A DNA stretch of 44,316 nt, from IMG/VR virus record IMGVR_UViG_3300047496_000013, positions 1 to 44,316 of that record, one strand, 5' to 3'. Below the pieces are notes generated by a model. That model searched no databases. It saw only the letters and a program-made list of their open reading frames with translations, and had not been told where the DNA came from. A program made the position numbers and the translations under genes. Below are positions 346 to 44,316 of this stretch, one piece after another (the first letter of the stretch is position 1; each line of letters opens with the position of its first letter). Source of the DNA: a virus.

Positions 346-1650
346 ATTAATAACTTTAAATTGAGGAAGCACATTCTTAGTAGGAGGCAACGTTAACAGC
401 TTCTCCCTATAGTTTTCACCACCGGGAAGCTGATAGGAATGATATTTGGTAGGATTATTAGGAAAATTGGTTCGGATAACTTCTTTTTGTGATTTAGACA
501 TTTTATCCCAATCTTCTTGTTTTATTTTAGATTGTTCCAATATAGCCTTATCTGATAATTCGCCTTTATCGACATCCTTAATCTCAACCTTATTATTAGC
601 CAAATGCTCCTGTAATTCAGCTTTCGTAACAGGTTCTTTACCCTTACTTTGTAAGAACTCTTTAGTTCCTGTCCAATCTAATTCTTCAGGCTTAACTCCC
701 GGTTTATTTTTTAAAGTTCCTAACCATTGTTCACCAGTCATTTTAGCTTGTGATATTTGATTTACATTATGCTCTAATGCAGAATAGAAAGGTTGTGTCT
801 TAGCCAAACTCTCTATCGCAGCCCCCGGCTTAGAACTATCCGCCAACATTGTACTAGTCAGCGTACCATACTTTGCATTCTGAGGATCAATCAAACCTTC
901 TTTAATTCCATAATCCAAAGCATCTTCCCGCTTTAAAAATTGTCCTTTATGGTTTATAAAACCAAAATCGTAATGATTAATATCTTCACCACTCATAGCT
1001 TTTTTATAAAAATCATCAGCTAAATGAGCCGGGATAGCATCGGAATGCTCTGCACCAAATCCTAATGGATTTTCAGCATCTTTGATCGGAGCTTTATAAA
1101 TTTTACCTTCAAATTTTAAAGCCGGTCTAAGCATGGGGCCAGCACCTAATGCCGCTCCTACACCTTCACCAGTACCAGCTAAACCACCTGTACCAGCCAA
1201 CGCCGACATTGCTTGCGCACCAGCAATTAATTGGGGAGAAGTAACAACTTCACCAGTCTCGGGATCAATAGAAGTTGTTGGTAAAGCTCCTGTTTTAACA
1301 TCATGAGGAACAGATAAAGCTTCCCTTACTACTTTCTCCGGCCACAATTGATACCGTTCTTCACCACCAGTACCAAATAATTGATTACCTAAAGGATGAC
1401 CTTCTGAAAAACTTGTTTCTGCTAATTTTTTAATAATTTTCTCCATAACATTATCCGAGGATAACTCAGGCATAGGAGCTACAGGCTTAGACCAATATTC
1501 CTCATCTGTAACAGGAGATTGAGGCGTAAATGGGGTTACTATTTCAGGGTTTAATGATCTTATATTAATTCCATTATAAGGCTGTTCAACTGGCAAACCA
1601 TTACCAGTTGTTTGTGGGTAATAATCGCTTAATTCTGCAAGACTAGGCAT
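328..1650 (-). CDS. Large polyvalent internal virion protein, N-terminal part
   Basis: About 440 residues from an ATG that overlaps the stop of the previous gene (ATGCCTAG). An upstream in-frame ATG at 1701 is possible but would overlap much more. A Gly/Ala-rich stretch lies near residues 150-175. The C-terminal half holds motifs shared by phage polyvalent virion proteins: MTGEQWLGTLKNKPGVKPEELDWTG, read as two short blocks, a VTKAELQEHLANN-type segment, and PGGENYREKLLTLP just before the end. It stops 15-18 nt into the next frame, which carries the continuation of the same family. It follows the portal gene in the late operon. Confidence 0.75.
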   Translation of the reverse strand: MPSLAELSDYYPQTTGNGLPVEQPYNGINIRSLNPEIVTPFTPQSPVTDEEYWSKPVAPMPELSSDNVMEKIIKKLAETSFSEGHPLGNQLFGTGGEERYQLWPEKVVREALSVPHDVKTGALPTTSIDPETGEVVTSPQLIAGAQAMSALAGTGGLAGTGEGVGAALGAGPMLRPALKFEGKIYKAPIKDAENPLGFGAEHSDAIPAHLADDFYKKAMSGEDINHYDFGFINHKGQFLKREDALDYGIKEGLIDPQNAKYGTLTSTMLADSSKPGAAIESLAKTQPFYSALEHNVNQISQAKMTGEQWLGTLKNKPGVKPEELDWTGTKEFLQSKGKEPVTKAELQEHLANNKVEIKDVDKGELSDKAILEQSKIKQEDWDKMSKSQKEVIRTNFPNNPTKYHSYQLPGGENYREKLLTLPPTKNVLPQFKVINEHVDR

Positions 1651-2113
1651 TTTGTACTTGTAACCATTGCCCGTTACTATTTTGTACATAGTGATTACCA
1701 TCTGGCGCTAATTGCGACATTGGCACTCCCGGCATACTTGGTAACTGTAATTTATTATCCGGTTCTACTTTAGAAAAATAATCTTGCATTTGTTCTGGTG
1801 TAAAATTATTTAAATTTGTAGCTCCCGGCTGGAAAGTATAACTTCCATTATCTTGTTTATTCCAAGCCCCTCCAAAATTTCCATCTTGCCCGTGATACTG
1901 GCTTTGATTAGAAAATGTTGGATGATTAGGTTTTTTAAAAGTATCTGGATAGTGAACACCTTTATCATTAGGATTAGCACCGGGGTTAGCCTTATACCAT
2001 CCTTGCATATCATAATCGTAAGCATCATTTGGTTTAAACTTAGTATTATAATCGGCCATTTCTTGAGCATTTAACGGCGTATTATATTGACTAGTTAAAT
2101 CAGGCTGCGGCAT
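1643..2113 (-). CDS. Conserved-looking late protein of unknown function
   Basis: 156 residues from an ATG overlapping the portal stop, with a GGAG-type ribosome site inside the end of the portal gene. A longer start at 2146 would lack such a site. The protein is Asn/Gln/Pro-rich with no signal peptide or membrane segment. The position between portal and internal virion protein suggests a minor head or head-tail component, but I do not recognise a domain. Confidence 0.6.
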   Translation of the reverse strand: MPQPDLTSQYNTPLNAQEMADYNTKFKPNDAYDYDMQGWYKANPGANPNDKGVHYPDTFKKPNHPTFSNQSQYHGQDGNFGGAWNKQDNGSYTFQPGATNLNNFTPEQMQDYFSKVEPDNKLQLPSMPGVPMSQLAPDGNHYVQNSNGQWLQVQNA

Positions 2114-4400
2114 TAGCCTGTCTCCATTGATTGTGAGCATTAACATCTAAAGGCGGGGCCGATAAAGAAGGTTCTGGTGTACCCTCCCCATCGCCCTGCT
2201 GCGCGTCTGGAAGCGTTATAGGCGTCCCCCCCTCCCCAACCCCCGGAGCTTTCCATACAAGCTCCCCATTGGCAACCATACCAGCTAGAAGTTCCTTTAA
2301 AACAGGCTGGATTTGTTCTTGACTGATGCCGGGGCCAGAATTACCCAAAGCTACAACCCGTTTGGTTTCTGCTTCATAATCCAACCTAGCTTGCTCTGCT
2401 GTAGCTTTCTTTAAATCTAAATCAAGTTGCAAACGTTTAATTCTCTGATCTTCTTCCTTATCTTGTACTTGTTTAGTTAGAGTTTGCAATTCTGCTGTTA
2501 ACTGTTGAATATGGTCTGCTGCCTGATGCATCAACTGCTCCTGTTGCGGATTAGGAGCATCACCAGTAATATTAGGCGGAATAACTTTACGCCAGCGTCT
2601 AGCAAGTTCTTGAGCTTCAGGGAAGTCAGCAACTTTCCAAAGCAAGTCACCTCCAATATTCATAAATTCTTTATTCTGTGCCGCGATCTGAGTTAATGCG
2701 TTAAATGCTTCTTGCCTTCTAGTTGCAAAACTTGGCCCCGTATCAGATTGAACGTCATATGTGCCCACATTAGGATTAAAAATAACGCTAACAATCTGTT
2801 GCTGATTGTCCATTTCAGGTTGCCCATCAGGGCTAGGAACTTTATTATATGCCTGTGGCGCATCGGGGGATATAGTTACGTCCATAATTGAGCCGTCTTT
2901 AGCTTCAATTCGAATAATTCTTTCAGTGTCACAAACCTTTGGTATTAAATCAATTAAAATTTTACCAGTAAATCTAATCGCAATAGCCTGATTATCAATA
3001 AAGTGATAAGTAGCTCTATCACCTTGGCGTTGCCTAGCATTAATAGCAACTCCAGATTTAGCATTTTCATTTTCTCCCATCTGAGCTTGATATTGCCCGG
3101 ACACCATCATCATTTCTTCTTGAGCAATTTTCATTTGCTCAACATAAGCTGGCGATGATTGAGGCGCAGCAGGACGTTGTGGCGGCGGAATAGGTTGCCC
3201 ATCTTCAGACATATGATTGTAGGGCAATACTGAAGCGTTATCAATATTAGCTCTACCCCATTTATCCTCAAAGCCTTCTATGGCTTCTGCTGGAGCTACC
3301 CATGGGGATTTAGTTTGTAGTGCTCCAAATTCAACGTTGGCACTGCTATTGATATTATATATTCGCTGAGGATCAAGTAATGCTCTAGTATGTCCTTTAC
3401 AATCCCAAATTCCATCAATGACAGTTTCGCTACCAATCAATCTGACAATTGGAATATATTTACCAATCCAAGGCTGTTTATCAATGATCCTGTTACCAGC
3501 AATCTTGTAAACCATGATATCGTCGCTTACAGTATCACGCTCTCTGTATTCACCGCCGGATTTTTTTACTTCTTTAAAAATCTCCTTAGCCTCATCTGGT
3601 AAGATGCTCCATTTTACAGGGCCAATAGGCTCGCCAGTATTTGGCAAAACAAAGTAAACTAACTTATCTTCTTTTTGTGTCTTTTTAAAATATTCACAAA
3701 CCCTAATCGTATCTCTTTGTATCCAGCCATAAGAAATTTCATTAAAAACTGTTGCGCCCCCAAATTCTTTAAATTTAGGGTATTCAATTTGATACAAATC
3801 TTTTGGCATATCATTAAAGATAAAACCAAATCTGGCATCTGATCCGTCAACCTCGTTTATATCAGGATCAAGATAAACTGTTCTAGGGTCTTTAATTCGC
3901 CTGATATAAATTTCCTTATCAAATGAATTATCGCTAATAGGTTCTACAGTTACTCGCCAATAACCCCAACCAGCATTAACCTGAAAAGTAGCAGCGTTAT
4001 CATAAACATTTTCAGCATTTGAAATATATTCAATATGCCTTACTACTTCCTGAAATACTTGAGCAGCTTCAAAGCTGGCGTCATCACCTACGGGGCGAAT
4101 GTTCACTCCCGGCTTATTCTGTTTTCCATCATTAATAATTTGTAAATTATGTTGCTGAGTTTTATTAATTGTTAAACAAGGTCTTTGATTAGTTTGCCTA
4201 TCCCCAATTACCCAATTATCCCATTGATACATATTATTGCTATCGCCATTAGCAAACTTGTAATCATACTCAAAATAAGTTCTGGCTTGGCTTTCCCAAT
4301 CCTCACAAATTTTAAAACGCTTCTGAGCTTCAGTTATAATCTCAATATCTTCTTCGGATAATTCCGAGGAAGCAAAGGAGGTAGACCAGCCGTCAGCCAT
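2100..4400 (-). CDS. Portal protein, P22-like family
   Basis: 766 residues, close to the roughly 725 residues of P22 gp1-type portals. The N-terminal third has family hallmarks: RPCLTINKTQQHNLQIIND, GVNIRPVGDD, and a GWGYWRV block near residue 145. The C-terminal 150 residues include a coiled-coil-like stretch rich in Lys, Glu and Gln around residues 620-680, as expected for the portal barrel, followed by a Pro/Gly-rich tail. The portal forms the dodecameric DNA entry channel at one capsid vertex and docks the terminase. It follows the large terminase with only a 42-residue gene in between. Confidence 0.92.
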   Translation of the reverse strand: MADGWSTSFASSELSEEDIEIITEAQKRFKICEDWESQARTYFEYDYKFANGDSNNMYQWDNWVIGDRQTNQRPCLTINKTQQHNLQIINDGKQNKPGVNIRPVGDDASFEAAQVFQEVVRHIEYISNAENVYDNAATFQVNAGWGYWRVTVEPISDNSFDKEIYIRRIKDPRTVYLDPDINEVDGSDARFGFIFNDMPKDLYQIEYPKFKEFGGATVFNEISYGWIQRDTIRVCEYFKKTQKEDKLVYFVLPNTGEPIGPVKWSILPDEAKEIFKEVKKSGGEYRERDTVSDDIMVYKIAGNRIIDKQPWIGKYIPIVRLIGSETVIDGIWDCKGHTRALLDPQRIYNINSSANVEFGALQTKSPWVAPAEAIEGFEDKWGRANIDNASVLPYNHMSEDGQPIPPPQRPAAPQSSPAYVEQMKIAQEEMMMVSGQYQAQMGENENAKSGVAINARQRQGDRATYHFIDNQAIAIRFTGKILIDLIPKVCDTERIIRIEAKDGSIMDVTISPDAPQAYNKVPSPDGQPEMDNQQQIVSVIFNPNVGTYDVQSDTGPSFATRRQEAFNALTQIAAQNKEFMNIGGDLLWKVADFPEAQELARRWRKVIPPNITGDAPNPQQEQLMHQAADHIQQLTAELQTLTKQVQDKEEDQRIKRLQLDLDLKKATAEQARLDYEAETKRVVALGNSGPGISQEQIQPVLKELLAGMVANGELVWKAPGVGEGGTPITLPDAQQGDGEGTPEPSLSAPPLDVNAHNQWRQANAAA

Positions 4401-4401
4401 T

Positions 4402-4530: not shown

Positions 4531-5906
4531 CATAAACTACTCATCCATGCTCTAGGCATCTGCCTTAATCTGTCATTAGTTTCTTGCGTTTTTTTATTCC
4601 TAGTATCATCTTCGGTCTTTAATGAAAGTGCAAATGTCTGGAAGGCGTCTGCCCCGTGCGACCATGGCGTATCATGATCAGGCTCTCTACTAAAACTACC
4701 AGTTTCATCATTTACTTTATAAGCGTACCTAGATAAGCATTGCCAACCATCAGCAGTACCAGCTTCATCAAAATTACAAAGTTCAAAAATAGTCCTAGCC
4801 GCATTGATACCCACAACCTTCTTTGTGGGTCTCTGCACTACTATTACCTTAGCGTTAGGAAAAGCCTTTCTAGTCATACTAGCAATAGAGCGAGCAGCTA
4901 AAGTTTCATTATCAGCATCATGTGGTTGATAATGGACCGCGTAAGTATACTTTTTAGCCTCTAATACCTCTATGTAATGAGGAAGCTTTTTTAATCTATT
5001 TTCGTAATAATCAATTAAATTATATTCCATTCCTACTCTTTGAATAAACCAAATGGCTGTTTTATCGGATGACCCTAAATCCCATGCTGTGTAAACCGGC
5101 TTAGTAGGATCATGGGCTACTCGTTTACGTCTACCATCATGCAAGGTTTGTTTAATTTCATCTGCATAAACTGCACCGTCAAGAGTTTGCTTAGTAAAAC
5201 CTTCCCATACTTCTAAGTATTTAGTGTAATTATTAGCTTTTAAAAGGTTCATTTCCCGCTTCAAATCAGGCGGGAACCATTTATTATCAGTGTAATTAAT
5301 CTTTACCACATACGCATAACGCTCCATTTCTCCGGTAACTTCATTTGGTAGAAAATCAGGAGCGTATAATTCTTTATTTACAACATACCTATTATAAACT
5401 TCATCATCATCTAATTCAGGGTTAAACGATATCCATACTTCCGGTCCTTTTCTAAATGGACCACCTAACCCATCTTTACTACTTTCGTGCTTGCCTCGAA
5501 TTGTGGGCATCAATTTATCTAAAGAATTTTTAGATGTATTGTTAGCTTCTTCAATCCAAGCAATATCAATTTTGGCTAAAGATTTAATCGAATTAATTTT
5601 ATATCTTAAACCAGAAAAAATAAATCTAGATCCTGTTAGGGTACAAGTAATAGATTTATCTTTAATATCAAAGAAACTTTCTAGCTGATACTGATAAATA
5701 TAGCTCTCAATTGTTTCTTTAACACTTTCTTCGATGGATGTTTGAATTTCTCTGAGGCATAAAATACGAAGTTTCATCTTCATGGATAATATTATTAAAG
5801 CTATTGCATAGCCATCGCTCTTACCTGCGCCACGACCACCATAGGCTATTTTAAGACGCGCGGGAGAAAACAAGAAGGCAAGTTTTTCATTAAACTCAAT
5901 TTCCAT
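4530..5906 (-). CDS. terL: Terminase large subunit (DNA-packaging ATPase/nuclease)
   Basis: 458 residues with a clear Walker A motif (GGRGAGKS, about residues 21-28) and Walker B (IDIAWIEEA, about residues 113-121), followed by a Terminase_3-type region. The C-terminal RNase H-like nuclease starts at AWDLGSSDKTAIW, with the first catalytic Asp at about residue 271. A later Asp/His-containing block (GADAFQTFAL) is near residue 430. The enzyme cuts concatemeric DNA and pumps it through the portal. The start ATG overlaps the stop of the preceding secreted-protein gene. Confidence 0.93.
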   Translation of the reverse strand: MEIEFNEKLAFLFSPARLKIAYGGRGAGKSDGYAIALIILSMKMKLRILCLREIQTSIEESVKETIESYIYQYQLESFFDIKDKSITCTLTGSRFIFSGLRYKINSIKSLAKIDIAWIEEANNTSKNSLDKLMPTIRGKHESSKDGLGGPFRKGPEVWISFNPELDDDEVYNRYVVNKELYAPDFLPNEVTGEMERYAYVVKINYTDNKWFPPDLKREMNLLKANNYTKYLEVWEGFTKQTLDGAVYADEIKQTLHDGRRKRVAHDPTKPVYTAWDLGSSDKTAIWFIQRVGMEYNLIDYYENRLKKLPHYIEVLEAKKYTYAVHYQPHDADNETLAARSIASMTRKAFPNAKVIVVQRPTKKVVGINAARTIFELCNFDEAGTADGWQCLSRYAYKVNDETGSFSREPDHDTPWSHGADAFQTFALSLKTEDDTRNKKTQETNDRLRQMPRAWMSSL

Positions 5907-6411: not shown

Positions 6412-6422
6412 AAAATTAATTC

Positions 6423-8385: not shown

Positions 8386-9036
8386 TCAGGCACGTACTCC
8401 ACCAACTAGCTTTAATGTAATTGGTGAATTGGAAGAAACATCATTCTCAATTTTAGGCTTAGGGGCTAATTGAACTTCTTTAGTTTCAGCAGCTTTCACT
8501 AATTTAATTGTCATTTCATTATGATTAATAGTCTTAGTAGAATTATCAATCTCAACTTTACCAGTGTATCCCATAATTTCAGAATATAATTTGTAGGCAG
8601 CAATTCTATCCTTGGCTTCAACTGTGGGCACAACGACGCCAAGTTTAGGACTTAAAATTTTTTCGTCCGCTAAAGCCAGAACCTTAGCCGCCAATTGTTC
8701 CTTGTCAAGAGGTGGAGAACTCAATTCTAAAGTTTTTAAATAAATATCGCGCGAAGCAATAACCAAAGGATCATGTAACCAATTAAAACTTATCCACAAA
8801 GCTTTAGTTTGATCATCAGGAAAAAGTTTGCAAGCAGCGTCCAATGGATTGGTAGTTTTGGCTAATTCAATACCAAAAGATTTTTTTAAATTTTCATCGG
8901 ATTGGTATGCTGGCGCAATTTCCTTAACCCAAGGGGCTTTAGTAATTATTTGCTCATTCCAGCCGCCAACTGGCGCAAAAGCCTCAGTATTAGGCTTGCT
9001 GATTACAAAAGAGGGGGATGTTACCCAAGGCTGCAT
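8386..9036 (-). CDS. Possible terminase small subunit
   Basis: About 216 residues; I use the ATG at 9036, while a GTG at 9051 in the same frame is an alternative. Neither start has an obvious ribosome site, and a terminator hairpin lies just upstream. The central part (LAAKVLALADEK and later RIAAYKLYSEIMGYTGK) resembles segments of small terminases, and the C-terminus is charged. The gene lies upstream of the large terminase in the same operon, which is the usual place. Weak by sequence, so other late functions remain possible. Confidence 0.4.
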   Translation of the reverse strand: MQPWVTSPSFVISKPNTEAFAPVGGWNEQIITKAPWVKEIAPAYQSDENLKKSFGIELAKTTNPLDAACKLFPDDQTKALWISFNWLHDPLVIASRDIYLKTLELSSPPLDKEQLAAKVLALADEKILSPKLGVVVPTVEAKDRIAAYKLYSEIMGYTGKVEIDNSTKTINHNEMTIKLVKAAETKEVQLAPKPKIENDVSSNSPITLKLVGGVRA

Positions 9037-9052
9037 TGCCCACACATACACA

Positions 9053-12763: not shown

Positions 12764-12981
12764 TTTTTAGCCCTATTTTCTTCAACCTCTGCTTCAGTAA
12801 AAGCGCCAAACTCAATCCCATGAGGATAACAAAGGCTCTTACTCATACCCACACAAATATAAGCTTCACAATTGCTAATTTCACAACGCGGCCACAGCAA
12901 AGTTTCGCCATCGTCTAATTCAATTTTCCCCCAACCTCTGCGGCAATACGAATAATCAATATCTTTGTAAATTAAAGGCAT
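12760..12981 (-). CDS. Small protein, unknown
   Basis: 73 residues with five Cys spread over the first 50 residues (SYCRRGWG, RCEISNCEAYICV, SLCYPH). It could bind a metal, but the spacing matches no family I know. Coupled by overlaps to both neighbours. Confidence 0.55.
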   Translation of the reverse strand: MPLIYKDIDYSYCRRGWGKIELDDGETLLWPRCEISNCEAYICVGMSKSLCYPHGIEFGAFTEAEVEENRAKK

Positions 12982-15727: not shown

Positions 15728-16377
15728 TTCAAATACCTCACTCCACCTTGCCCAACCGGCCTATCAAACCTAGCACTAGCACCAGCCGAATGCCCCATTC
15801 GAGCCGCATTCTGATCTACTTCGCGACCGCGACCACGGCTTTTTACCAAACTTAGCCCCATTTCCTTAACAATAAGTTCCTGCCTTTTAGCCCAATCAAT
15901 AGGAGCAAGCTCTTTTAGCTTCTCATTAATCCGAGCAGTACAGCCTACAACAAAAGAAGCAGATGTATGATTACTATTACCAAGATGCTTCTTAGCTCTA
16001 TCACTTTGGTACTGGCGCAAGGCTCGCATTACAAAGCGTTGAAGCGTATCCAATAGCCAAGTTGCGAAAAGAATATCGCTTTCTTTACCAGCGAAGTTAG
16101 TTACTTTTTCTCTGTCTCGAAACGCCTTGCAATTGGTAAATTTGCCCACATTTACAGACAAATTTCGCTTAATTTCATACGGATCAGAAGGAGCAGTTTT
16201 GAAGATTTGCGCTTTCTCAGCCTGATTAAGTTCACTTTCATCAATGTTATAAGTAGCCATTAATTCCCGCGCCTTAGCTAGCGCAGTCATGGCTTCTTCT
16301 TCGGTACAGCCGTTATCCATAGTCTTAGCCAAGATAGCCTTGACTTTTTCAAGCATCTTCTTACGGCTATCTTGCAT
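15724..16377 (-). CDS. DUF2786 domain protein
   Basis: 217 residues with the DUF2786 signature at residues 9-45: VKAILAKTMDNGCTEEEAM and ALAKARELMATYNI. The remainder matches the C-terminal part often fused to it in phages (GCTARINEKLKEL, then a Gly/Arg-rich segment SRGRGREVD and HSAGASARF). Widespread in phages and bacteria, function unknown. Its own promoter-like motif starts within the end of the VRR-NUC gene. Confidence 0.85.
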   Translation of the reverse strand: MQDSRKKMLEKVKAILAKTMDNGCTEEEAMTALAKARELMATYNIDESELNQAEKAQIFKTAPSDPYEIKRNLSVNVGKFTNCKAFRDREKVTNFAGKESDILFATWLLDTLQRFVMRALRQYQSDRAKKHLGNSNHTSASFVVGCTARINEKLKELAPIDWAKRQELIVKEMGLSLVKSRGRGREVDQNAARMGHSAGASARFDRPVGQGGVRYLK

Positions 16378-17326: not shown

Positions 17327-17451
17327 TTAAATACCCACACAATGATTAAAGTTAAACCTATACCAGTAACAATCGAACCTAAAATACCTTGTGGATTTTT
17401 AACAAATATAAATAATCCTAACAGACATAGAATTATGGCTAACCAAATCAT
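17323..17451 (-). CDS. Small two-span membrane protein
   Basis: 42 residues from an ATG with GGAGAA upstream; a longer frame to 17505 lacks this. Two hydrophobic segments (IWLAIILCLLGLFIFV and GSIVTGIGLTLIIVWVF) flank a short KNPQG turn, forming a compact membrane hairpin. Function unknown. Confidence 0.55.
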   Translation of the reverse strand: MIWLAIILCLLGLFIFVKNPQGILGSIVTGIGLTLIIVWVFK

Positions 17452-26707: not shown

Positions 26708-26860
26708 ATGAACATGAAAAAGCCTAGAGAAATTAAAAGGCGTTTACCTAAAATTAAAAATAAAGGTTGTGTGATTAAAAATTCAGATAGAGAAAGGGCT
26801 AGGCGTAAACGCCAAATTGCTAAAGGTCAATTAAAAGTTGAAAATGGATTAGCAATATAA
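26708..26860 (+). CDS. Small basic protein, unknown
   Basis: 50 residues, strongly basic (KKPREIKRRLPKIKNKG, RERARRKRQIAKG). Stop overlaps the ATG of the next gene (TAATG). Probably binds nucleic acid. Confidence 0.5.
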   Translation: MNMKKPREIKRRLPKIKNKGCVIKNSDRERARRKRQIAKGQLKVENGLAI

Positions 26861-27993: not shown

Positions 27994-28279
27994 ATTCACT
28001 AAAGCTCATAGAGAAGCTTTAAGCAAAGCAGCTAAGGCTAGATATGCTAAGAAAGGAAAGAAACGTGGACGCAAGCCGGGAGTTAAAGTAGGACTGTATA
28101 AGAAGCATAAGCCGAGTAAGGCTTATTTGGAATCGTTGGCTGAGAGCCTTCCTCAGTATGATCCTAAACTTCCTTACACTCCTGCACCTTTATCCTTGTG
28201 TGGGCAATTGGAAGATGCTATCCTCTTATTTGAGAACCGTATCTCAAATGCTATCGCTAAAATTAACAGTTTGATGTAA
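27986..28279 (+). CDS. AT-hook-containing basic protein
   Basis: 97 residues. The first 45 are highly basic with a KKRGRKPGVK AT-hook and NUMOD3-like spacing (KAHREALSKAAKARYAKKGK). The C-terminal helix (LEDAILLFENRISNAIAKI) could dimerise. Likely binds AT-rich DNA. Confidence 0.6.
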   Translation: MPKFTKAHREALSKAAKARYAKKGKKRGRKPGVKVGLYKKHKPSKAYLESLAESLPQYDPKLPYTPAPLSLCGQLEDAILLFENRISNAIAKINSLM

Positions 28280-28507: not shown

Positions 28508-28717
28508 ATGTTTAAACAATATCGCAGAACACAAATCGCTGAAATGCGTCCTTATATAGAGAATGAACAGCTATATGATGTTAGCATTTCTAAGCCTGAT
28601 TTAGAAGCAGGTTCACCAAAAATAGGAGATATGATAGCCCGTAATCCCAAAAATCATGCTGATATGTGGCTGGTAGCTAAACAATATTTTGCAGACAACT
28701 TTGAGGAACTAAACTAA
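28508..28717 (+). CDS. Small conserved phage protein
   Basis: 69 residues from the ATG right behind the Acb2-like gene. The sequence (KQYRRTQIAEMRPYIE, SISKPDLEAGSPKIGDMI, ARNPKNHADMWLVAKQYF) is a pattern seen in many unrelated phages. Function unknown; the recurrent pairing with the previous gene type is worth noting. Confidence 0.65.
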   Translation: MFKQYRRTQIAEMRPYIENEQLYDVSISKPDLEAGSPKIGDMIARNPKNHADMWLVAKQYFADNFEELN

Positions 28718-29334
28718 TGAAAATGAACGGAGTTTTCAACGCCAATCAATACGAACCAAATCAAGGAATGTCGGGCCATCCCCCGGCTTTAAAAATTCCT
28801 TTTACAATTACTAATACAGCAATTGTAGAGAACAAGTCTAAGGATGGTGGATTTTTTCAAGTGGAATTAACTTCTCCGCTTGGAACACAAATCCAGCGTT
28901 ATAATATCTGGAATAAAGAGCCTAAAGCAGTAGAAATTGCTCACGGGCAACTATCAGCACTTTGCCGCGCTACCAACATTTACCAAATCGATTGGCAGAA
29001 TGAAGGTGCTGCTTTGCGTGGTGGTAAAGGTCTGATGGATGTTGGCTATCAGAAAGGTGAAGAACCGAGCGAAGCTAAACCTCAAGGCGGTTATACCGAA
29101 CTTAAGAAAGTATATGATCTGGCTGGCAATGAGCCGGGTAAGGGTAATACTGCTCCCGCTCAACCGCAACCCAATGGCCCTACGCCGCAAGTACAGCAGC
29201 CGGGAGGGGGATGGGCTAGCCAGCCTCGACAGAACCAAAACCCTAATCCAGCGCCCGCTAATCAAGCTGGCGGGGCATGGCAACCGGGAGGTAATGCTCC
29301 TGCTGTTTCCCCGCCTTGGGGGTCGAGGGGTTAA
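28717..29334 (+). CDS. Single-stranded DNA-binding-like protein
   Basis: 205 residues. The N-terminal 125 residues are beta-rich (ALKIPFTITNTAIVENKSKD, GFFQVELTSPLGTQIQRYN) with a helix containing LSALCRATNIYQID, like DUF669-type phage SSBs. The C-terminal 80 residues are Pro/Gln/Gly/Asn-rich and disordered, ending PPWGSRG. Lies between the Sak4-like ATPase and the exonuclease and ends in a strong terminator. Confidence 0.65.
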   Translation: MKMNGVFNANQYEPNQGMSGHPPALKIPFTITNTAIVENKSKDGGFFQVELTSPLGTQIQRYNIWNKEPKAVEIAHGQLSALCRATNIYQIDWQNEGAALRGGKGLMDVGYQKGEEPSEAKPQGGYTELKKVYDLAGNEPGKGNTAPAQPQPNGPTPQVQQPGGGWASQPRQNQNPNPAPANQAGGAWQPGGNAPAVSPPWGSRG

Positions 29335-29412: not shown

Positions 29413-30273
29413 TTGCTAGACTTAACAAAACAATCTGATCGTGAAAAGCTAGAAGATTTTCTTAAAGAAGATATTAATGAATTTTGCACTGATTACTACG
29501 AACAAGGCCACCGCGATCATTTAGGCGCTTCAGAGCTAGGCGAGGAATGTTGGAGAAAATTGTGGTATTCGTTTAGGTGGTGTAAACAAGAACGCTTTGA
29601 CGGTCGCATGATGCGATTATTTAATGTGGGGCACTCCGCAGAACCTAGATTTGTTACTTATTTAAGAGGTATTGGTTTTGAAGTTAAAGAATTTGACGAG
29701 AAGGGTAAACAATTTCGCATTGAAGGAGCTATGGGGCATTATGGTGGTAGCTTGGATGGAATGTGTAAAGCTCCAAGCAGATATAAATTGTCAGAAGATT
29801 TGGTATTTCTCCTTGAAATGAAAACTAATAATACTGGTAGCGGATTTACAAAAGTATCTACAGAACCATTGAGCAAATCCAAACCCCGCCATTTTGCTCA
29901 AATGTCGCAGTATGGGCAAAAAATGGGATTAAAATATGGGCTTTATATTATTGAAAATAAAAATGATAGCGATTTAATTTTTAAAATTATTGAATTAGAT
30001 TGGAACCTTGGAAGCCAATTAGAAAAGAAAGCTAACGATATTATTTTTTCTAAAGAGCCTCCACCGCGAATTTCTGAAAATCCTGCTTTTTTTAACTGCA
30101 AGTTTTGTAATTTTACAGATATATGCTTTAATAATGCTAAGGTAGAAAAAAATTGCCGCTCTTGTCGTAATGCAACTCCAATAGCAGATGCTAAATGGCA
30201 TTGCGCTATTGCTGGGTATGAAATTCCCGAAGCTGTAATTAAAGAAGGATGCCCCCAATGGTTGCCGATTTAA
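29413..30273 (+). CDS. PD-(D/E)XK exonuclease, Cas4/RecB-like
   Basis: 286 residues from a TTG start with AGGTGA 5 bases upstream. Core motifs: GASELGEECWRKLWY near residue 36, the GHSAE helix near residue 74, MGHYGGSLDGMC (catalytic Asp, about residue 115), LLEMKTNN (E-x-K, about residue 137), and HFAQMSQYGQKMG (Q-x3-Y type). A Cys-rich end (CKFCNFTDIC, CRSCRNATP, WHCAIAGYEIP, GCPQW) may hold an Fe-S cluster or zinc. It likely resects DNA ends for recombination. Confidence 0.82.
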   Translation: MLDLTKQSDREKLEDFLKEDINEFCTDYYEQGHRDHLGASELGEECWRKLWYSFRWCKQERFDGRMMRLFNVGHSAEPRFVTYLRGIGFEVKEFDEKGKQFRIEGAMGHYGGSLDGMCKAPSRYKLSEDLVFLLEMKTNNTGSGFTKVSTEPLSKSKPRHFAQMSQYGQKMGLKYGLYIIENKNDSDLIFKIIELDWNLGSQLEKKANDIIFSKEPPPRISENPAFFNCKFCNFTDICFNNAKVEKNCRSCRNATPIADAKWHCAIAGYEIPEAVIKEGCPQWLPI

Positions 30274-30274
30274 A

Positions 30275-31864
30275 ATGATCCAACTTCGTTCCTATCAACA
30301 GGAAGCATTAGACGCACTCTACAATTACTTCCTTACCCATCATACGGGTAATCCCTTAATTGCACTTCCAACTGGTACAGGTAAGTCTGTTCTTCCTGCT
30401 GCTTTTATTAATGGTATTCTTCGACGTTGGCCTAATCAACGTTTCGGAATGATCACTCACGTTAAAGAATTAATTCAACAGAATGCAGATGAACTTTTAC
30501 AATTGTGGCCCGAAGCTCCACTTGGTATTTATTCTGCTGGTCTTAAGCGTAAAGATATAGCCCATCCGATTATCTATGGAGGGGTTAGGTCTATGGTAAA
30601 ACATCCAGATTGGTTTGGTCGATTTGATATAATTTTTATTGATGAAGCTCATTTATTATCGGCTGATGCAGAAAGTGAGTATCAAACACTCTTAGGATAT
30701 TTAAAACTGGTAAACCCATCCCTGAAAATTGTGGGCATGACTGCTACTAAATACCGCATGGGGATGGGGCTTTTAACTAACAACGGAATTTTTACAGATA
30801 TAATTTACGATAAAACTACACTAGAAGGATTTAATGAATTATTAGCTGCTGGTTATATGGCTCCTTTAATTCCGCTCCGAACTAAAACAGAATTAGATGT
30901 TTCTGATATATCTGTTCAAGCTGGTGAATTTGTTCAAACTCAACTACAAGGAGCAGTCGATAAAGCTCCTATAACTTATAAAGCTTTACAAGAGTTAGTA
31001 CATGCCGGGCAAAATAGGAAAAGTTGGCTTATCTTCGCGTCGGGTATCGAACATGCTGAACACATTGCAGAACAACTTGGAGCGTTTGGAGTTGATTGCG
31101 CGCCGGTCCACTCGAAAAGGCCAAATGATTATAACGATGAAGCAATTAAAGCATTTAAGAAAAATGAGCTTAGAGCTATCGTTAACTACGGTAAACTTAC
31201 AACTGGTTTCAATCATCCCGAAATAGATTTAATTGGAATGCTTAGGCCAACTCTTAGTGTGCCGTTATGGGTACAGATGCTAGGAAGAGGAACTAGACCG
31301 GCTAAAAAAGATTGCCTTGTATTGGATTTTGCTCGCAATACTCCAAGGCTAGGTCCAATCAATGATCCTCAAATTCCCAAGATGAAAAAAGGGGATATTG
31401 GGGAAATGCCAATTAAAATTTGCGAAAGCTGCGGTACTTACAATCATATCTCTGCTAGAACTTGCTGTAATTGTGGGGAAGATTTTTCCTTTCAAGTCAA
31501 GTTAGTTTCTAAATCTGGTACTGATGAATTAATTAAAGCTGCTATAACAGAACCAACTCCGATTGTAGAAACTTTTAATGTTTTAAATGCGACTTATGTA
31601 AAGCATCAAGGAAAGACTGGCAAACCTCCTACAATCAAGGTAACATATTTTACCAGTGGTTTAGCTTTTAAAGAATATATTTGCTTGGAACATTCGGGAA
31701 TGGCTGGTAAGATGGCTAGAGATTGGTGGAGACGTAGGATTGCAATAGAACCTCCAGCAACAGTAGATCAGGCTTTAGAGCATATTGCCAAGCTAAAAGT
31801 GCCTAGGTTTATCAGAGTGCATGTTAATAAAACTTATCCAGAGGTAATTGGATGCGAATTTTAG
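30275..31864 (+). CDS. SF2 DEAD/DEAH-box helicase with zinc ribbon
   Basis: 529 residues. Motif I LIALPTGTGKSVLP (about residue 28), motif II FIDEAH (about 125), motif III GMTATKYRMG (about 155), motif V-like VNYGKLTTGFNHP, and motif VI LGRGTRPAKKDC. From residue 382 a four-Cys zinc ribbon (CESCGTYNH, CCNCGEDF) precedes a C-terminal beta-rich extension. Typical of phage replication/recombination helicases. Starts 2 bases after the exonuclease. Confidence 0.9.
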   Translation: MIQLRSYQQEALDALYNYFLTHHTGNPLIALPTGTGKSVLPAAFINGILRRWPNQRFGMITHVKELIQQNADELLQLWPEAPLGIYSAGLKRKDIAHPIIYGGVRSMVKHPDWFGRFDIIFIDEAHLLSADAESEYQTLLGYLKLVNPSLKIVGMTATKYRMGMGLLTNNGIFTDIIYDKTTLEGFNELLAAGYMAPLIPLRTKTELDVSDISVQAGEFVQTQLQGAVDKAPITYKALQELVHAGQNRKSWLIFASGIEHAEHIAEQLGAFGVDCAPVHSKRPNDYNDEAIKAFKKNELRAIVNYGKLTTGFNHPEIDLIGMLRPTLSVPLWVQMLGRGTRPAKKDCLVLDFARNTPRLGPINDPQIPKMKKGDIGEMPIKICESCGTYNHISARTCCNCGEDFSFQVKLVSKSGTDELIKAAITEPTPIVETFNVLNATYVKHQGKTGKPPTIKVTYFTSGLAFKEYICLEHSGMAGKMARDWWRRRIAIEPPATVDQALEHIAKLKVPRFIRVHVNKTYPEVIGCEF

Positions 31865-32276: not shown

Positions 32277-33281
32277 GTGCCTCCTAAACCCCGCTCTAAA
32301 CCTCAACCCTCAAACGCTCTATTAGAAGCATTAAGCTTCTGTAGCGTAGTTTCTGAGAAGCTAGGGGCAAGTTATGAGACACATATTGGGTTACGTAACA
32401 ATTGGGCTATCGCTTTTAACGGTATTATTGCTGCTGGTGCTCCAATTGTTGAGGATATTCAAATTCATCCCCACACTCTGTTGTTAATTGAGGCTCTTTC
32501 TAAATGCGATGAAAACTATTCCTTAACTCAATTAGACAACGGAAGATTATCTATTAAGTCTGGAAAATTCAAAGCTATTGTACCTTGCCTCGATCCTGCG
32601 TTAATGCAAGAGGCTAGCCCTGATCCTCAAATAGTTGCAATAGATAATCGTTTTAAAGACGCTGTAGAAGCTGTAGGAGTATTGGCTAGTGAAAATGCAC
32701 AACACGTACTAACCGCTTCTGTATTGATGAATGGTCAATCTGTAATCTCAACTAATCGCGTTATGCTCCTAGAATACTGGCATGGATTAGACCTGCCTCC
32801 TAATATTCCATTACCAAAACAATTTGTAGCTGCATTAATAAAACAGAAAAAAGATTTAACAGGGTTTGGATTTTCTAAAAGTAGTGCTACATTCTGGTTT
32901 GGCGATTGTTGGCTAAGAACACAATTGTACTCCGATGAATGGCCTGATGTTAGTTCAATTTTAAATCGTAAAGCTAATCTATGGTCTATTGATCCTTCTT
33001 TCTTCAAGGCTCTTGACGCTATTGAACCATTTTCAGAAGATGGTAATGTGTACAGCGATACAAACTTATTAATGTCGCACAGCGAAAATCAAGGGGCTAG
33101 TTTTGAAGTAACAGGGCTACCAAAAGGTTTTGTCTATCCGATTAAGCAATTAAAAATTATGCGTCCATTCGCGAAGAAGGTGGATTGGATGGCGAGTGGA
33201 GTGCATGATAGTAGTTATTGTTTGGTATTTGAAGGGGACTTGGTTAGAGGAGTTATAAGTGGGAGAATGAAGCATGCCTAG
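32277..33281 (+). CDS. DNA polymerase sliding clamp-like protein
   Basis: 334 residues from a GTG start, near the length of DnaN (about 366). The repeating strand-helix layout and the ISTNRVMLLEYW segment (compare ATDGHRL in DnaN domain 2), LPKQFVAALIK, and WLRTQLYSDEWPDVSSIL (compare the EFPD-type segment) point to a beta-clamp fold. A clamp next to a family B polymerase would raise processivity. Weak pairwise similarity, so a structural search is needed to confirm. Confidence 0.5.
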   Translation: MPPKPRSKPQPSNALLEALSFCSVVSEKLGASYETHIGLRNNWAIAFNGIIAAGAPIVEDIQIHPHTLLLIEALSKCDENYSLTQLDNGRLSIKSGKFKAIVPCLDPALMQEASPDPQIVAIDNRFKDAVEAVGVLASENAQHVLTASVLMNGQSVISTNRVMLLEYWHGLDLPPNIPLPKQFVAALIKQKKDLTGFGFSKSSATFWFGDCWLRTQLYSDEWPDVSSILNRKANLWSIDPSFFKALDAIEPFSEDGNVYSDTNLLMSHSENQGASFEVTGLPKGFVYPIKQLKIMRPFAKKVDWMASGVHDSSYCLVFEGDLVRGVISGRMKHA

Positions 33282-33864
33282 CCTATATCAGCGTAGTAAA
33301 CTAAAATCGACTAATGTTAAACAACCGACACCAAACAAACATGTTGGAGCTATTACAGATTACGCTAGCCGTAGATATGTAAAAGAAGGCTATCCTATAG
33401 AAAAATCTTTTAATTCAATAGACCAAATAAAAGAATATTTAAGCAAACCTAAATTAACTTGCCTACTATGTGGAAATGAATTTAAATGGTTATCTGGAAC
33501 ACATTTTAAAAAAATTCATAATATAACTGAACGAGAGTATAAAGATAGATACAATTTACCATATTCTATTGGTTTGATATGCGAAGAACTTAAAATAAAA
33601 AGAACACAAGTCGTAATGAAGCATTATAAAACATCACTAGACGGATCACCTCCACAAATTCAAAAAAATTACAAAGTAAATAAAGGAGTTAGTGCTTATA
33701 AGCGATTAACTAGCTCAGCAAATGCTACAAAAACACCAACTCATAATAAAAAATGGCCTCATGAGAAAGGTTATAAGTGCACTTGTGAAGAATGTAGATT
33801 GAGAAGAAATGACAATCACAATAAAGCATATAGATTGCGACATGCCCACACAACTAAACTCTGA
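33274..33864 (+). CDS. MucR/Ros-like zinc-finger protein
   Basis: 196 residues. Residues 60-110 resemble the Ros/MucR domain: LTCLLCGNEFKWLSGTHFKKIH (Cys2His2 site, read in two blocks) followed by ITEREYKDRYNLP, the hallmark of MucR (MTPEEYRxKWxLP). A second Cys-rich patch (CTCEECRLRRND) lies near the end. Ros/MucR proteins are alphaproteobacterial regulators, so this is a host clue. Starts within the end of the clamp-like gene. Confidence 0.65.
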   Translation: MPSLYQRSKLKSTNVKQPTPNKHVGAITDYASRRYVKEGYPIEKSFNSIDQIKEYLSKPKLTCLLCGNEFKWLSGTHFKKIHNITEREYKDRYNLPYSIGLICEELKIKRTQVVMKHYKTSLDGSPPQIQKNYKVNKGVSAYKRLTSSANATKTPTHNKKWPHEKGYKCTCEECRLRRNDNHNKAYRLRHAHTTKL

Positions 33865-35785
33865 CGGCCTAATCACCCTATCAAAATCCGCTCAGCTTCT
33901 CCCTTACGTCGCTCGCTCCTTTCCAGAGCGAGAATATCTTACTGATGCCGAACTTCTAAATAATGTGGGCAAAACATTATTTCTAAACGTAGAAAGCTAC
34001 CCAAATTATTTTGTCATAACTTTTAAACTTCATCAGACAAACAAATTCTTACATTTGGAAATACCATTTAATTCCAGATTTCTTAGCTGGATAATGAATA
34101 ATTATAGGACGGTAGGTTTTAACAGTTTAAATTACGATTTGCTGATGATATGGCTTGCTTACAGTGATCAAGATATATCACGTATTAAAGACGCAACTAA
34201 CGATTTAATTTTAAGAAATATGCGAGAATATGAATTAAAAAAAGAATACTCATTCTTCACTTTTAAAACTAACCATATCGACTTAATTCAAGTAGCTCCA
34301 CTCAAGGGAAGTCTAAAACTTTATGGAGCTAGGATACATACCAAAAGCATTGAGGATCAGCCATTTGATATTAATTCTGATCTTTCGAAATTTGAGATAG
34401 AGCAGTTAAAAGGTTTTAATTGTAATCAGCTTGATATAACCGAGGAACTTTTTAATTTTTGTAAAGAGCGCATTGAATTACGCGAGGCAATGGGTAATGA
34501 GTATCAAGAAGATTTGCGTTCAAAATCAGATGCTCAAATAGCTGAAGTAGTTCTTACCAAAGAAGTTGCAAAAATTAATGGAGTAAAACCTAAGAAAATT
34601 ACTATTGAACCGGGGACTACTTATCGGTATTCAGTTCCAAATTATTTACAATTTCAATCTCCAAATTTACAAGAGCTTTTAAATAAAATTAGAACAGCTA
34701 AATTCATTGTAAATGGATGGGGGAAGATAGACCTTCCTAAAGAGCTTGAAACATCAATAAAAATTAATAAAGCTAGCTATAGATTAGGTATAGGAGGGTT
34801 ACACAGTGAAGAAAAATGTGTTGCTTATGTAGCTACTCCCGAATGTTCGATTGTTGATCGTGATGTTGCTTCTTATTATCCTCGCTTGGTTACAACATTA
34901 GGTCTTTACCCTGCTGCTTACGGTCCAGCCTTCTTAGTAGCCTATGAAACTATCATTCAATCTCGTTTAAAAGCTAAAGAAGCTAAACGAAAAACTGAAG
35001 CAGCAGGAAAAAAGATTGTTGTTAATGGAGCAGGAGGTAAATTTTCCGATCCTTACTCTTTTTTATACGGTCCCGATTTAACAATTCAAATGACTGTTAC
35101 AGGGCAACTAGCCTTATTGCTTTGCATTGAAGCTTTAACTCTTTGTGGGTTAGAAGTTATATCAGCTAATACAGATGGTATCGTCACTTTAGTACCAAAA
35201 GATAAAGAGGCTGATTATCAACGCTGTTATGAATGGTGGGAAAATACCACAGGCTTTTTTACTGAAGAAACTCGTTATAGCTCTTATTTTGGGCGCGATG
35301 TTAACAGCTACTATGCCGTCAAAGAAGGAGCGGCTAATAGAGAGGATGTAAAACTTAAAGGTCCATGGTCCGAAAAAGGTTCGCAATCCGGCACACAGCT
35401 AGATACTAATCCTACTAGCTTAATTTGCACTGATGCTATATGTGATTTATTGATTAAAGGAACACCAGTAGAAGAAACAATCCAAAATTGTAAGGATTTC
35501 ACAAGATTTGTAACCGTAAGACAGGCTAAAGCTCCCGGTGCCCACAAATCAGGAGTGCTGCTAGGAAAGGTAATTCGCTTTTATTATGCCAAGGGAGAAA
35601 CAGGAATTATACAGTACGTTCAATCAAACAATAAAATTCCTGATACCGATGGAGCTAAACCAGTAATGGTTATGCCTGATAGCTTTCCAGAGGATGTGAA
35701 TTTTTCATGGTATGTGGGCAAGACGAAAGAAATTTTAGAAGATATTGGCTATCTCCAACGTCCAAAACAATTAAATTTCTTCTAA
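33842..35785 (+). CDS. Family B DNA polymerase
   Basis: 647 residues from ATGCCCACA; an ATG at 33809 in the same frame would add 11 residues. Polymerase motif A: VDRDVASYYPRLV. Motif B: KIVVNGAGGKFSDP. Motif C: SANTDGIVTLV. All are typical of compact phage family B enzymes. The N-terminal exonuclease-like region has FLNVESYPNYF where Exo I normally reads D-x-E, and VGFNSLNYDLL for Exo II. It is the main replicative polymerase candidate alongside the primase-polymerase. Last gene of the plus-strand operon. Confidence 0.88.
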   Translation: MPTQLNSDGLITLSKSAQLLPYVARSFPEREYLTDAELLNNVGKTLFLNVESYPNYFVITFKLHQTNKFLHLEIPFNSRFLSWIMNNYRTVGFNSLNYDLLMIWLAYSDQDISRIKDATNDLILRNMREYELKKEYSFFTFKTNHIDLIQVAPLKGSLKLYGARIHTKSIEDQPFDINSDLSKFEIEQLKGFNCNQLDITEELFNFCKERIELREAMGNEYQEDLRSKSDAQIAEVVLTKEVAKINGVKPKKITIEPGTTYRYSVPNYLQFQSPNLQELLNKIRTAKFIVNGWGKIDLPKELETSIKINKASYRLGIGGLHSEEKCVAYVATPECSIVDRDVASYYPRLVTTLGLYPAAYGPAFLVAYETIIQSRLKAKEAKRKTEAAGKKIVVNGAGGKFSDPYSFLYGPDLTIQMTVTGQLALLLCIEALTLCGLEVISANTDGIVTLVPKDKEADYQRCYEWWENTTGFFTEETRYSSYFGRDVNSYYAVKEGAANREDVKLKGPWSEKGSQSGTQLDTNPTSLICTDAICDLLIKGTPVEETIQNCKDFTRFVTVRQAKAPGAHKSGVLLGKVIRFYYAKGETGIIQYVQSNNKIPDTDGAKPVMVMPDSFPEDVNFSWYVGKTKEILEDIGYLQRPKQLNFF

Positions 35786-36486: not shown

Positions 36487-36757
36487 TGGATTTATTAGAC
36501 CTTGTTTCTAAAGCTAAATTTTCTAAAGCTTTAGCTGCATTGTTAGAAGCGGTCGCGCTATCATGAATAGCCCCTGCTATTCTATCAGCAGCAGATATTC
36601 GTTCATCATAACTTTCAATTAATTGATTTTCTAGCATCTGAATACGAATATCTTTTTTTGCTTCTCTAGTTTCAGATTTTTGTAGCATTACCCACAATAC
36701 TATGGATACTACAGCCGTTGGACCCCAAGACTTCAATAGCTCTAAAACTAAATCCAC
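36479..36757 (-). CDS. Membrane-anchored coiled-coil protein (spanin- or holin-like)
   Basis: 92 residues: one membrane span near the start (WGPTAVVSIVLWVMLQ, residues 11-26), then a charged helical domain (SETREAKKDIRIQMLENQL). The N-anchor plus coiled-coil layout resembles inner-membrane spanin subunits. The gene lies in a lysis-type cluster. Confidence 0.5.
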   Translation of the reverse strand: MDLVLELLKSWGPTAVVSIVLWVMLQKSETREAKKDIRIQMLENQLIESYDERISAADRIAGAIHDSATASNNAAKALENLALETRSNKSNG

Positions 36758-37936: not shown

Positions 37937-38392
37937 TTATCTTGATACAGCTTCGAAGTGCATCCAGTCCTTTCTTCCACGGTAATCTCCACCCCATAAC
38001 CAACTTTCGTTTTTAAAAGCTGCTACAATAATTGGTGACATAGTTCCTACTTTACGTCCCAATTGATTATTTTCAGGGTCTAAGTCTATAGCTGCTGCAA
38101 AGGCATGATTTGAAATATTAGAGGAACCACGAATAGAACGATTGTTATAGCAACCTGCGTACACACTCGCTCTGATTGCGTCAACCTTCTTTTGATCGTG
38201 CCCACATTTATCTAGGATTTCGTTAAAAACTTTAAGCAGAGAAGTTGCCACCATCTTATTTACAGTAATAGTCTTTAAAGCATGACCATCATAGTACATC
38301 TGAAAAGGTGGAGTAATTGGTACTAAATTAGTACCGGGTTTACCAAAAAATTTAATTTTTGATGCTGTGTCGTCATGGGGCCAAGCGGTCAT
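37937..38392 (-). CDS. M15-family peptidase (endolysin)
   Basis: 151 residues, no signal peptide. The zinc-peptidase motifs are clear: SNISNHAFAAAIDLDPENN (S-x2-H-x6-D type) and KDWMHFEAV (catalytic and ligand His). LWGGDY lies between them. It would cut peptidoglycan peptides (D-Ala or L-Ala-D-Glu bonds). The neighbouring holin-like protein provides a route to the wall. Confidence 0.85.
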   Translation of the reverse strand: MTAWPHDDTASKIKFFGKPGTNLVPITPPFQMYYDGHALKTITVNKMVATSLLKVFNEILDKCGHDQKKVDAIRASVYAGCYNNRSIRGSSNISNHAFAAAIDLDPENNQLGRKVGTMSPIIVAAFKNESWLWGGDYRGRKDWMHFEAVSR

Positions 38393-38625: not shown

Positions 38626-38626
38626 T

Positions 38627-42885: not shown

Positions 42886-43009
42886 CGCTTTAGTCTTTCT
42901 TCTACTAATATTTTTAAAATTTAAAAATTATATCTGGATGCCCACAATACTGATTTTAGCCGCTTACGCAAAGTGGAAAATTTATGATCCTATAAAATTA
43001 CAAATTATT

Positions 43010-44316
43010 TTATGGTCCTACAAGCAATCGAAGCTTACTGCGACGCGAAAGTCTAGGCTGCTGTTGATTAGCAACCGCTTCAAGACTTCTGATTAATTGA
43101 TCCCTATCTGGCCCTTGTGTGGGTAAAGCATATTTAGCTAATTGCAAATTGCGTTCTTGCTCTATAGCATTTATTATTTTACTTTTAGCAAGCGATGCGC
43201 TTTTACCTACAATTAACCCCGCTAAGGACGCGCCTGTACCAAGAACGCTACCTACTCCACCACCCATACCAGCAATTTGCCCTCCAATTTCTGAAGCAGC
43301 CCCTATAGCGGGAATAATATATTTAGCTATTCCGCTTTGCTGATCAGGTTTATCTTTAGTCAAAGCTGTAGCTTCTTTGTTAGATAATCTGACACTAGTA
43401 TCAGAACCTTCTATTATTTTATTATCAACATGTTTGATTGATCTTGTATTTTCTAAATTGCGGAGTAATTTTTCTGTTTCTTCTTTACCAAAAACAATTT
43501 CCATTTTCTTTTGATTAAAATCTGAACGTCCTAAATTGGTTCCGGCTAAAGAGCCATTTTGAGCTGCCCCCATTCGGCTATCAATAGCTAATCTCACTCC
43601 TTCCTTAGCAGCTTCTTTCTCATGATTGGTTAAACCATCAAACCACTCTTTAGTAAATTCAGGTCTATTTTCCATTTTAGTTGAATTTGAAAAAACACCA
43701 TAATACCCATCATGAAATGCTTCATCTAGTTCTTTAGACCCTCGATAAGCAGCTAATCCTTCTTTATAACCGGGTGCAGAGGCATGTATATCATTTACAA
43801 GATTATTGCGAACATCCATTAAGTGTCTACCTAAAGAGCGTTCACTAGCATTACCGCTGTTGAGCATATTTTCAGCAGTACGTCTTAAAGTAGATTGAAA
43901 TTCATGTAAATCTTGTGGATCAGTACGCATTTCTTTTTTATTAGCTAAATAATTTCTAACAGTAGCTAATTCACTTTTAATATTAGATAAAGGTAAGGTG
44001 CTATCACCTTTTTCAAACTTACTCCAAACGCCGGGTTTTAAAATTTTATCAATTTCAGAAACAGTATTAGAAATATTAACAGGTTTAGCTGCTGCTAAAG
44101 CCGGATTAATCATTTCGCTGCCAACTTTTTTAGCAGCATCTTTTAAATCAGCAAGCTTTTGTATTACATTTACAGGAATACCACCAGCTTCATTAAAAGC
44201 AGCGGAGGTATCATTTTTTAAATTAGAAATTCTACCCTTTGAAGCATCGAACAAATGACTTTTAGCGGCTGGATTATCCTTAGCAAACATATCCTGAGTT
44301 AGAGCTAAAACATTAG
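43010..44316 (-). CDS. Internal virion protein, C-terminal part (5' end off window)
   Basis: The frame is open to the right edge, so the first visible Met (44290) need not be the start. Helical with long charged segments (EFQSTLRRTAENMLNSG, LGRHLMDVRNNLVNDI, NHEKEAAKEGVRLAIDSRMG), then a Gly/Ala-rich hydrophobic stretch (IIPAIGAASEIGGQIAGMGG, VGSVLGTGASLAGLIVGKSA) that could insert in a membrane during DNA ejection. It resembles the C-terminal part of large internal/polyvalent virion proteins and may belong to the same operon as the gene leaving the left edge. Confidence 0.7.
   Translation of the reverse strand, partial: NVLALTQDMFAKDNPAAKSHLFDASKGRISNLKNDTSAAFNEAGGIPVNVIQKLADLKDAAKKVGSEMINPALAAAKPVNISNTVSEIDKILKPGVWSKFEKGDSTLPLSNIKSELATVRNYLANKKEMRTDPQDLHEFQSTLRRTAENMLNSGNASERSLGRHLMDVRNNLVNDIHASAPGYKEGLAAYRGSKELDEAFHDGYYGVFSNSTKMENRPEFTKEWFDGLTNHEKEAAKEGVRLAIDSRMGAAQNGSLAGTNLGRSDFNQKKMEIVFGKEETEKLLRNLENTRSIKHVDNKIIEGSDTSVRLSNKEATALTKDKPDQQSGIAKYIIPAIGAASEIGGQIAGMGGGVGSVLGTGASLAGLIVGKSASLAKSKIINAIEQERNLQLAKYALPTQGPDRDQLIRSLEAVANQQQPRLSRRSKLRLLVGP

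Follow-up and report, generated by a model that had tools for sequence, protein, structure and literature searches.

An over-represented octamer, TGTGGGYA, as the probable template recognition site of a phage primase-polymerase

The octamer TGTGGGYA in the virus record

The IMG/VR virus record IMGVR_UViG_3300047496_000013 was analysed over its whole length of 44,316 bases (positions 1 to 44,316, hereafter the window). It encodes a P22-type portal and a primase-polymerase (PrimPol), and it contains many dispersed copies of the octamer TGTGGGYA, for which an earlier reading made from the letters of the record had proposed a role as priming site of this PrimPol. We counted 26 TGTGGGYA sites, 17 of the form TGTGGGCA and 9 of the form TGTGGGTA, located between positions 1613 and 43125 with 12 on the plus strand and 14 on the minus strand. 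Our recount thus agrees with the sequence-only reading on the 17 exact octamers and on the presence of sites on both strands, and raises its figure for the second form from 7 to 9. The sites given by the motif scan are:

1613..1620, plus strand, TGTGGGTA site
2762..2769, minus strand, TGTGGGCA site
4808..4815, minus strand, TGTGGGTA site
5502..5509, plus strand, TGTGGGCA site
8623..8630, plus strand, TGTGGGCA site
9037..9044, minus strand, TGTGGGCA site
12846..12853, minus strand, TGTGGGTA site
16143..16150, minus strand, TGTGGGCA site
16712..16719, plus strand, TGTGGGTA site
16738..16745, minus strand, TGTGGGCA site
17332..17339, minus strand, TGTGGGTA site
18999..19006, plus strand, TGTGGGCA site
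19898..19905, minus strand, TGTGGGTA site
21976..21983, minus strand, TGTGGGCA site
23129..23136, plus strand, TGTGGGTA site
25127..25134, plus strand, TGTGGGCA site
28199..28206, plus strand, TGTGGGCA site
30730..30737, plus strand, TGTGGGCA site
33843..33850, minus strand, TGTGGGCA site
33964..33971, plus strand, TGTGGGCA site
35539..35546, minus strand, TGTGGGCA site
35713..35720, plus strand, TGTGGGCA site
36689..36696, minus strand, TGTGGGTA site
38199..38206, minus strand, TGTGGGCA site
42939..42946, minus strand, TGTGGGCA site
43118..43125, plus strand, TGTGGGTA site

The over-representation of TGTGGGYA in the window is confirmed. A third-order Markov model predicts 0.75 copies of TGTGGGCA and 0.83 of TGTGGGTA, and when the window 8-mers were ranked against this model, as had been suggested, TGTGGGCA was the top outlier (rank 1 among 2942 scored words, log-likelihood ratio of 36.8). 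The pattern read backward, used as a control, does not occur in the window. The enrichment is strict, nearly all one-letter variants being near expectation: TGTGGGAA, TTTGGGCA and AGTGGGCA are each absent, and the only two raised variants are TGTGGGGA (4 versus 0.4 expected) and TGTGAGCA (4 versus 1.0). Codons were then shuffled synonymously within genes, a procedure that preserves every protein and the codon usage of each gene, and 9.15 +/- 1.46 sites remained, none of the 300 shuffles leaving more than 15; this mean includes the 7 intergenic sites, which the procedure leaves untouched. Since 26 sites are observed where about 9 survive the shuffle, protein coding does not explain them, in agreement with the sequence-only reading, and the excess is selected at the DNA level. 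The sites are not concentrated between genes (7 intergenic sites versus 7.8 expected). Among hexamers, the most over-represented word of the window is CAGCAG/CTGCTG, which occurs 81 times versus 26 under a second-order model and is found in many places.

The window encodes a candidate reader of the octamer

The proposed reader of the octamer is the PrimPol, which combines an N-terminal archaeo-eukaryotic primase (AEP) type primase-polymerase, an NrS-1-type helix-bundle domain and a C-terminal MCM-like AAA+ ATPase:

22323..24620, minus strand, PrimPol of 765 amino acids (phrog_3022), from PHROG match, profile and model
23868..23987, minus strand, helix-bundle domain PF22763, PrimPol residues 212-251 (31.8 bits versus a cut-off of 27.9)

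The protein matches NrS-1 chains in phmmer with E values of 2e-17 to 3e-17. In the predicted structure (mean pLDDT, the predicted local distance difference test, of 84), the N-terminal part matches the folds of NrS-1 6a9w (E 1e-12) and of the Sulfolobus islandicus primase-polymerase 3m1m, and the C-terminal half (22323-23678) is modelled as an MCM-type AAA+ helicase; the corresponding half is DUF3987-like in one relative. Residues D75 and H110 are invariant in both alignments, and D77 is invariant in one and conserved at over 90% in the other. The head, DUF5906 and tail domains of the NrS-1 C-terminus were not found in the window PrimPol by domain scan. The description of this enzyme as NrS-1-type therefore holds for the primase and the helix bundle and fails for the C-terminus, which resembles the MCM type.

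In vitro, NrS-1 polymerase uses 5'-GTGG-3' and 5'-GTGA-3' as its most efficient template sites; it also uses TTTGGTTA, less strongly than GTGG, and mostly starts synthesis at the base immediately 5' of the recognition site (PMC8718748). TGTGGGYA contains T-GTGG, i.e. the preferred NrS-1 site plus the expected start base. The NrS-1 site given in the sequence-only reading, TTTGGTTA, was thus correct, and the closer link is the GTGG preference with a start one base 5' (PMC8718748). Helix-bundle mutants of NrS-1 polymerase prime weakly, and by analogy with this role in relatives (PMC8718748) we propose the helix-bundle domain of the window PrimPol as the putative binder of the recognition site. 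In the NrS-1 genome itself, GTGGTT is the strongest hexamer by the score that we used (31 versus 11.1 expected) and TTTGGTTA occurs exactly once.

Phages with a related PrimPol carry the octamer or a lineage variant

Ranking of 8-mers in 28 genomes or contigs that encode a full-length PrimPol of the window's family placed a word containing TGTGG first among the outliers in 25 of them, a tally that leaves aside NrS-1, phages with an AEP only and records lacking PrimPol. In the three other cases, such a word has rank 5 in G004, which is a fragment, and rank 6 in both G007 and Me-ZS1. In phages with PrimPol homologues, the TGTGG-core word is a top outlier from 36 to 59% GC and in many hosts, and the letters 3' of the core vary by lineage (TGTGGTTA, TGTGGTCA, TGTGGCCA, TTGTGGGT). 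TGTGGGCA is the top word in most of the window's group, in Septimatrevirus, Kilunavirus, Titanvirus, Lokivirus and others, as illustrated by the Septimatrevirus phage 73 (19 versus 0.26 expected). The word is TGTGGTTA in Seurat (38 versus 2.0), one letter away from TTTGGTTA, and TGTGGTCA in PaMx25 (32 versus 1.1) and 9g (30 versus 2.1). TTGTGGGT occurs 32 times each in BP63 (1.6 expected) and S144, the PrimPol of both being very divergent. TGTGGGGA, one of the raised variants of the window, is the word of G006, and G008 uses TGTGGCCA (23 versus 0.99); in this GC-rich genome, TAAATTTAA-type words also recur (8 versus 0.03 expected). Among 80 IMG/VR loci retrieved by PrimPol alignment search, most of the longer ones have TGTGGGCA at or close to the head of the ranking, and TTGTGGGG is the word of one clade. 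Relatives of the window found by portal or terminase gave 12-43 sites in five large PrimPol-bearing contigs.

On the PrimPol tree, genomes of one motif class group together (10 changes versus a shuffled mean of 13.6, a value as low being reached in 0 of 200 shuffles), as expected of any vertically inherited trait. At aligned sites, the TGTGGG core is kept in 15 of 22 cases between phages 73 and KL1, versus 36 of 199 for 6-mers of the same composition, and in 34 of 49 cases between BP63 and S144, versus 200 of 514. Finally, 295 pooled TGTGGGYA sites show an upstream bias, with A at position -2 in 186 (79 expected), T at -1 in 133, and avoidance of C at both positions. This bias falls on the bases that would template the start of the primer, which fits priming.

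Genomes lacking this PrimPol serve as natural controls

Besides PrimPol, the window encodes the following replication and recombination proteins:

26860..27582, plus strand, Sak4-like annealing protein (domain and PHROG match)
28717..29334, plus strand, single-strand DNA binding protein (SSB; PHROG match)
29413..30273, plus strand, Cas4-domain exonuclease (PHROG match)
30275..31864, plus strand, superfamily II (SF2) helicase, ResIII/DEAD (domain match)
32277..33281, plus strand, DNA polymerase processivity factor, or clamp (PHROG match)
33809..35785, plus strand, DNA polymerase, phrog_1252, the proposed primer extender (PHROG match)

A ROS/MucR-type regulator gene (PF05443, 33274-33864) lies between the gene for the clamp and that for the polymerase, with an overlap at each end.

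TGTGGNYA is not enriched in the Casjensviridae AH2 (2 observed, 3.0 expected), RcSalem (5 and 6.4) and AchV4 (4 and 5.5), which have the same DNA polymerase family, PolB, and no detected PrimPol; PolB was thus rejected as the motif partner. No enrichment is seen in Moraxella phage Mcat24, which lacks PrimPol but encodes homologues of the SF2 helicase, the Cas4 exonuclease, SSB and Sak4; these four genes were rejected as well. Three distant terminase relatives without PrimPol, of 22-26 kb, contain 0, 0 and 2 sites and are weak controls because they are fragments. Across these genomes the motif goes together with PrimPol, and nearly as closely with the clamp. The comparison of relatives called for by the sequence-only reading therefore separates PrimPol-bearing genomes, which have the motif or a lineage variant, from PrimPol-less ones, which do not. 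The same reading had named equal enrichment in the host as a sign against priming; in a 50-kb segment of E. coli, which several of these phages infect, the words of the phages are not enriched, and host bias was discarded as the cause.

Sites are evenly spaced on each strand in most relatives

In 20 of 21 genomes, the strand-wise gaps between sites vary less than the mean of random placements (Stouffer z of -12.5, a combined value that overstates independence, some of these genomes being related). The coefficient of variation (CV) of the gaps is typically 0.31-0.65, versus about 0.9 for random positions and about 0.97 for control 6-mers, with for instance 0.31 in Halfdan, 0.32 in RcSpartan, 0.37 in V1207B and 0.50 in phage 73. 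When strand labels were shuffled over the same positions, most of this evenness disappeared (z of -9.4), indicating that the sites are regular within each strand. With one genome kept per group (13 genomes), the summed z values are about -11 for evenness and about -8 for the strand shuffle. RHEph06, whose word is CTGTGG, has a strand-wise CV of 0.41, a value as low being obtained in 0 of 2000 simulations. Such strand-specific evenness fits priming on a single-stranded template and would not be needed by a duplex-binding protein.

In the window, the mean gap is 3.7 kb on the plus strand (12 sites) and 3.2 kb on the minus strand (14 sites). The looser motifs TGTGGG and TGTGGG[CTG]A bring no greater regularity there, and GTGGGYA, one of ten patterns tried, gives a spacing p of 0.03. 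An origin-linked strand switch was also considered and rejected, no segmentation of site orientation being found in any genome tested. Sites are up to 2.7x denser on one strand (e.g. 19 versus 7) in Axy19, RcSpartan, BP63, S144, PaMx25, 9g and Loki_W9, which perhaps reflects the main fork direction or the composition of the coding strand.

TGTGGGYA as a priming site, and the alternatives

On the evidence from the letters of these genomes, TGTGGGYA is very probably the site that the phage's PrimPol recognises on its template. The priming-site proposal of the sequence-only reading draws its support from the strict enrichment, the selection at the DNA level, the association with PrimPol, the lineage variants and the even, strand-specific spacing in relatives. 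The octamer is too rare by chance, so selection keeps its copies on both strands; and with copies on both strands genome-wide and no orientation switch, both strands would be primed templates everywhere, a situation expected of replication by strand displacement or driven by recombination, with forks running both ways. We suppose that PrimPol scans the single-stranded template exposed by replication, that its helix-bundle domain reads 5'-TGTGG(G)YA-3', and that its primase domain begins the primer opposite the T that directly precedes GTGG. The bases further upstream, with A favoured at -2, would be copied next, and the primer would be handed off to the phage DNA polymerase and clamp for extension, so that the octamers kept by selection would set the likely start points of lagging-strand fragments. 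More broadly, a large group of phages probably encodes its lagging-strand start points as about 20 to 50 primase-specific octamers, kept evenly on each strand by selection, so that the template specificity of PrimPol and the fragment length could be read from the genome alone.

Several results weigh against this interpretation. The regular spacing in the window itself is no more than a trend (CV of 0.71 versus 0.90 at random, p about 0.08), gaps on a single strand reaching 8.1 and 11.9 kb, and the sites of G008 are clustered, the sole exception among the 21 genomes. G004 and G007 carry a close PrimPol and few exact sites. Because the clamp gene accompanies PrimPol, association by itself does not tell these two apart. 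Phages with distant AEP primases (9NA, LP-101, phiadh and CaptainTrips) have no such word. Independently of this question, the genome of 9NA, a Salmonella phage, has overlapping words centred on AGCATAAGC and CATAAGCAG, observed about 13 times each, much above expectation. The NrS-1 genome has no evenly spaced array, GTGGTT not being evenly spaced, and in vitro NrS-1 polymerase requires just GTG or GTGG, far shorter than an octamer (PMC8718748).

PrimPol could also recognise these sites mainly for origin firing or fork restart and not for routine lagging-strand priming, a role proposed for NrS-1 polymerase (PMC8718748). We consider this unlikely, as tens of sites, even on each strand, suit repeated priming of the whole template better than one origin. 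Other explanations place the reader outside PrimPol. Chi sites are oriented, over-represented octamers, as is TGTGGGYA, and the exonuclease and Sak4 share one gene module, so that a Chi-like word regulating the Cas4-domain (RecB-like) exonuclease and the Sak4 recombination system could be imagined. However, the association is broken both ways, Mcat24 having these genes and no enriched word while Axy19 has the array and no detectable Cas4 exonuclease, and the core of the octamer is the sequence on which NrS-1 polymerase primes in vitro (PMC8718748); a Chi-like function is thus very improbable.

The octamer might instead be a duplex binding site for a ParB-like protein or for a small DNA-binding protein encoded upstream of PrimPol, two genes being candidates in the window:

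14323-15153, ParB-like gene
24623-25135, GIY-YIG/helix-turn-helix (HTH) fusion open reading frame (ORF), directly upstream of PrimPol

This ORF apparently combines a weak match to GIY-YIG endonucleases with an HTH-like end, and in relatives its place is held by a small stand-alone ORF, HTH-like or ribbon-helix-helix (RHH)-like, the RHH label being our reading of the sequence; such an ORF is common beside PrimPol. ParB was rejected as the reader, since it is missing in most motif-bearing genomes and present in the motif-negative AH2 and 9NA. The small neighbour was rejected too, its type and presence not following the motif: some genomes have an HTH-like ORF, others one that looks RHH-like, and in G005 and 9g none was detected. 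Moreover, TGTGGGYA is asymmetric and no palindrome, and the evenness of its spacing holds strand by strand, which makes a duplex site highly improbable. Short words can also become over-represented through sequence bias, but a methylation or restriction word, a host-driven bias or codon usage is hardly credible here: no methyltransferase was found among the about 30 window proteins scanned (a subset of the ORFs), the E. coli segment is not enriched, phages of one host use different words (Seurat and Halfdan in E. coli, PaMx25 and phage 73 in P. aeruginosa), and synonymous shuffling removes the excess.

Significance and comparison with known systems

We found no earlier description of evenly spaced, genome-wide arrays of long primase sites in the open-licence literature, where the letters of the octamer matched only unrelated sequences; a description elsewhere is possible. 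Sequence-specific priming is already known from test-tube work, and the genome-wide array of long sites would be the new part. If TGTGGGYA is indeed the PrimPol site, the priming signal could be predicted from the genome in Septimatrevirus, Queuovirinae, Lokivirus, Rosemountvirus and others, and many natural variants would be available to learn how the helix-bundle domain reads DNA. The octamers would then mark the starts of lagging-strand fragments, offering a direct way to test the replication mode of these phages, and enzymes with a known start word could serve as tools for sequence-directed DNA synthesis.

The NrS-1 PrimPol shares with the window enzyme the AEP and the PF22763 helix bundle, and the window motif holds GTGG, one of the two most efficient NrS-1 sites, at which NrS-1 synthesis starts one base 5'; the NrS-1 enzyme differs by its head/DUF5906/tail C-terminus, MCM-like here, and the octamer described here is longer and strict. 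The pRN1 ORF904 primase is similar in fold, helix-bundle domain and GTG core, but this plasmid enzyme reads the trinucleotide 5'-GTG-3', and a spaced genome-wide array is unreported for it in the literature found. Chi sites resemble TGTGGGYA as oriented, over-represented octamers, whereas the window octamer has no association with the exonuclease once PrimPol is absent. T7 gene 4 and E. coli DnaG likewise use sequence-specific template sites for lagging-strand primers, but these sites are trinucleotides, abundant by chance, while the octamer of the window must be kept by selection.

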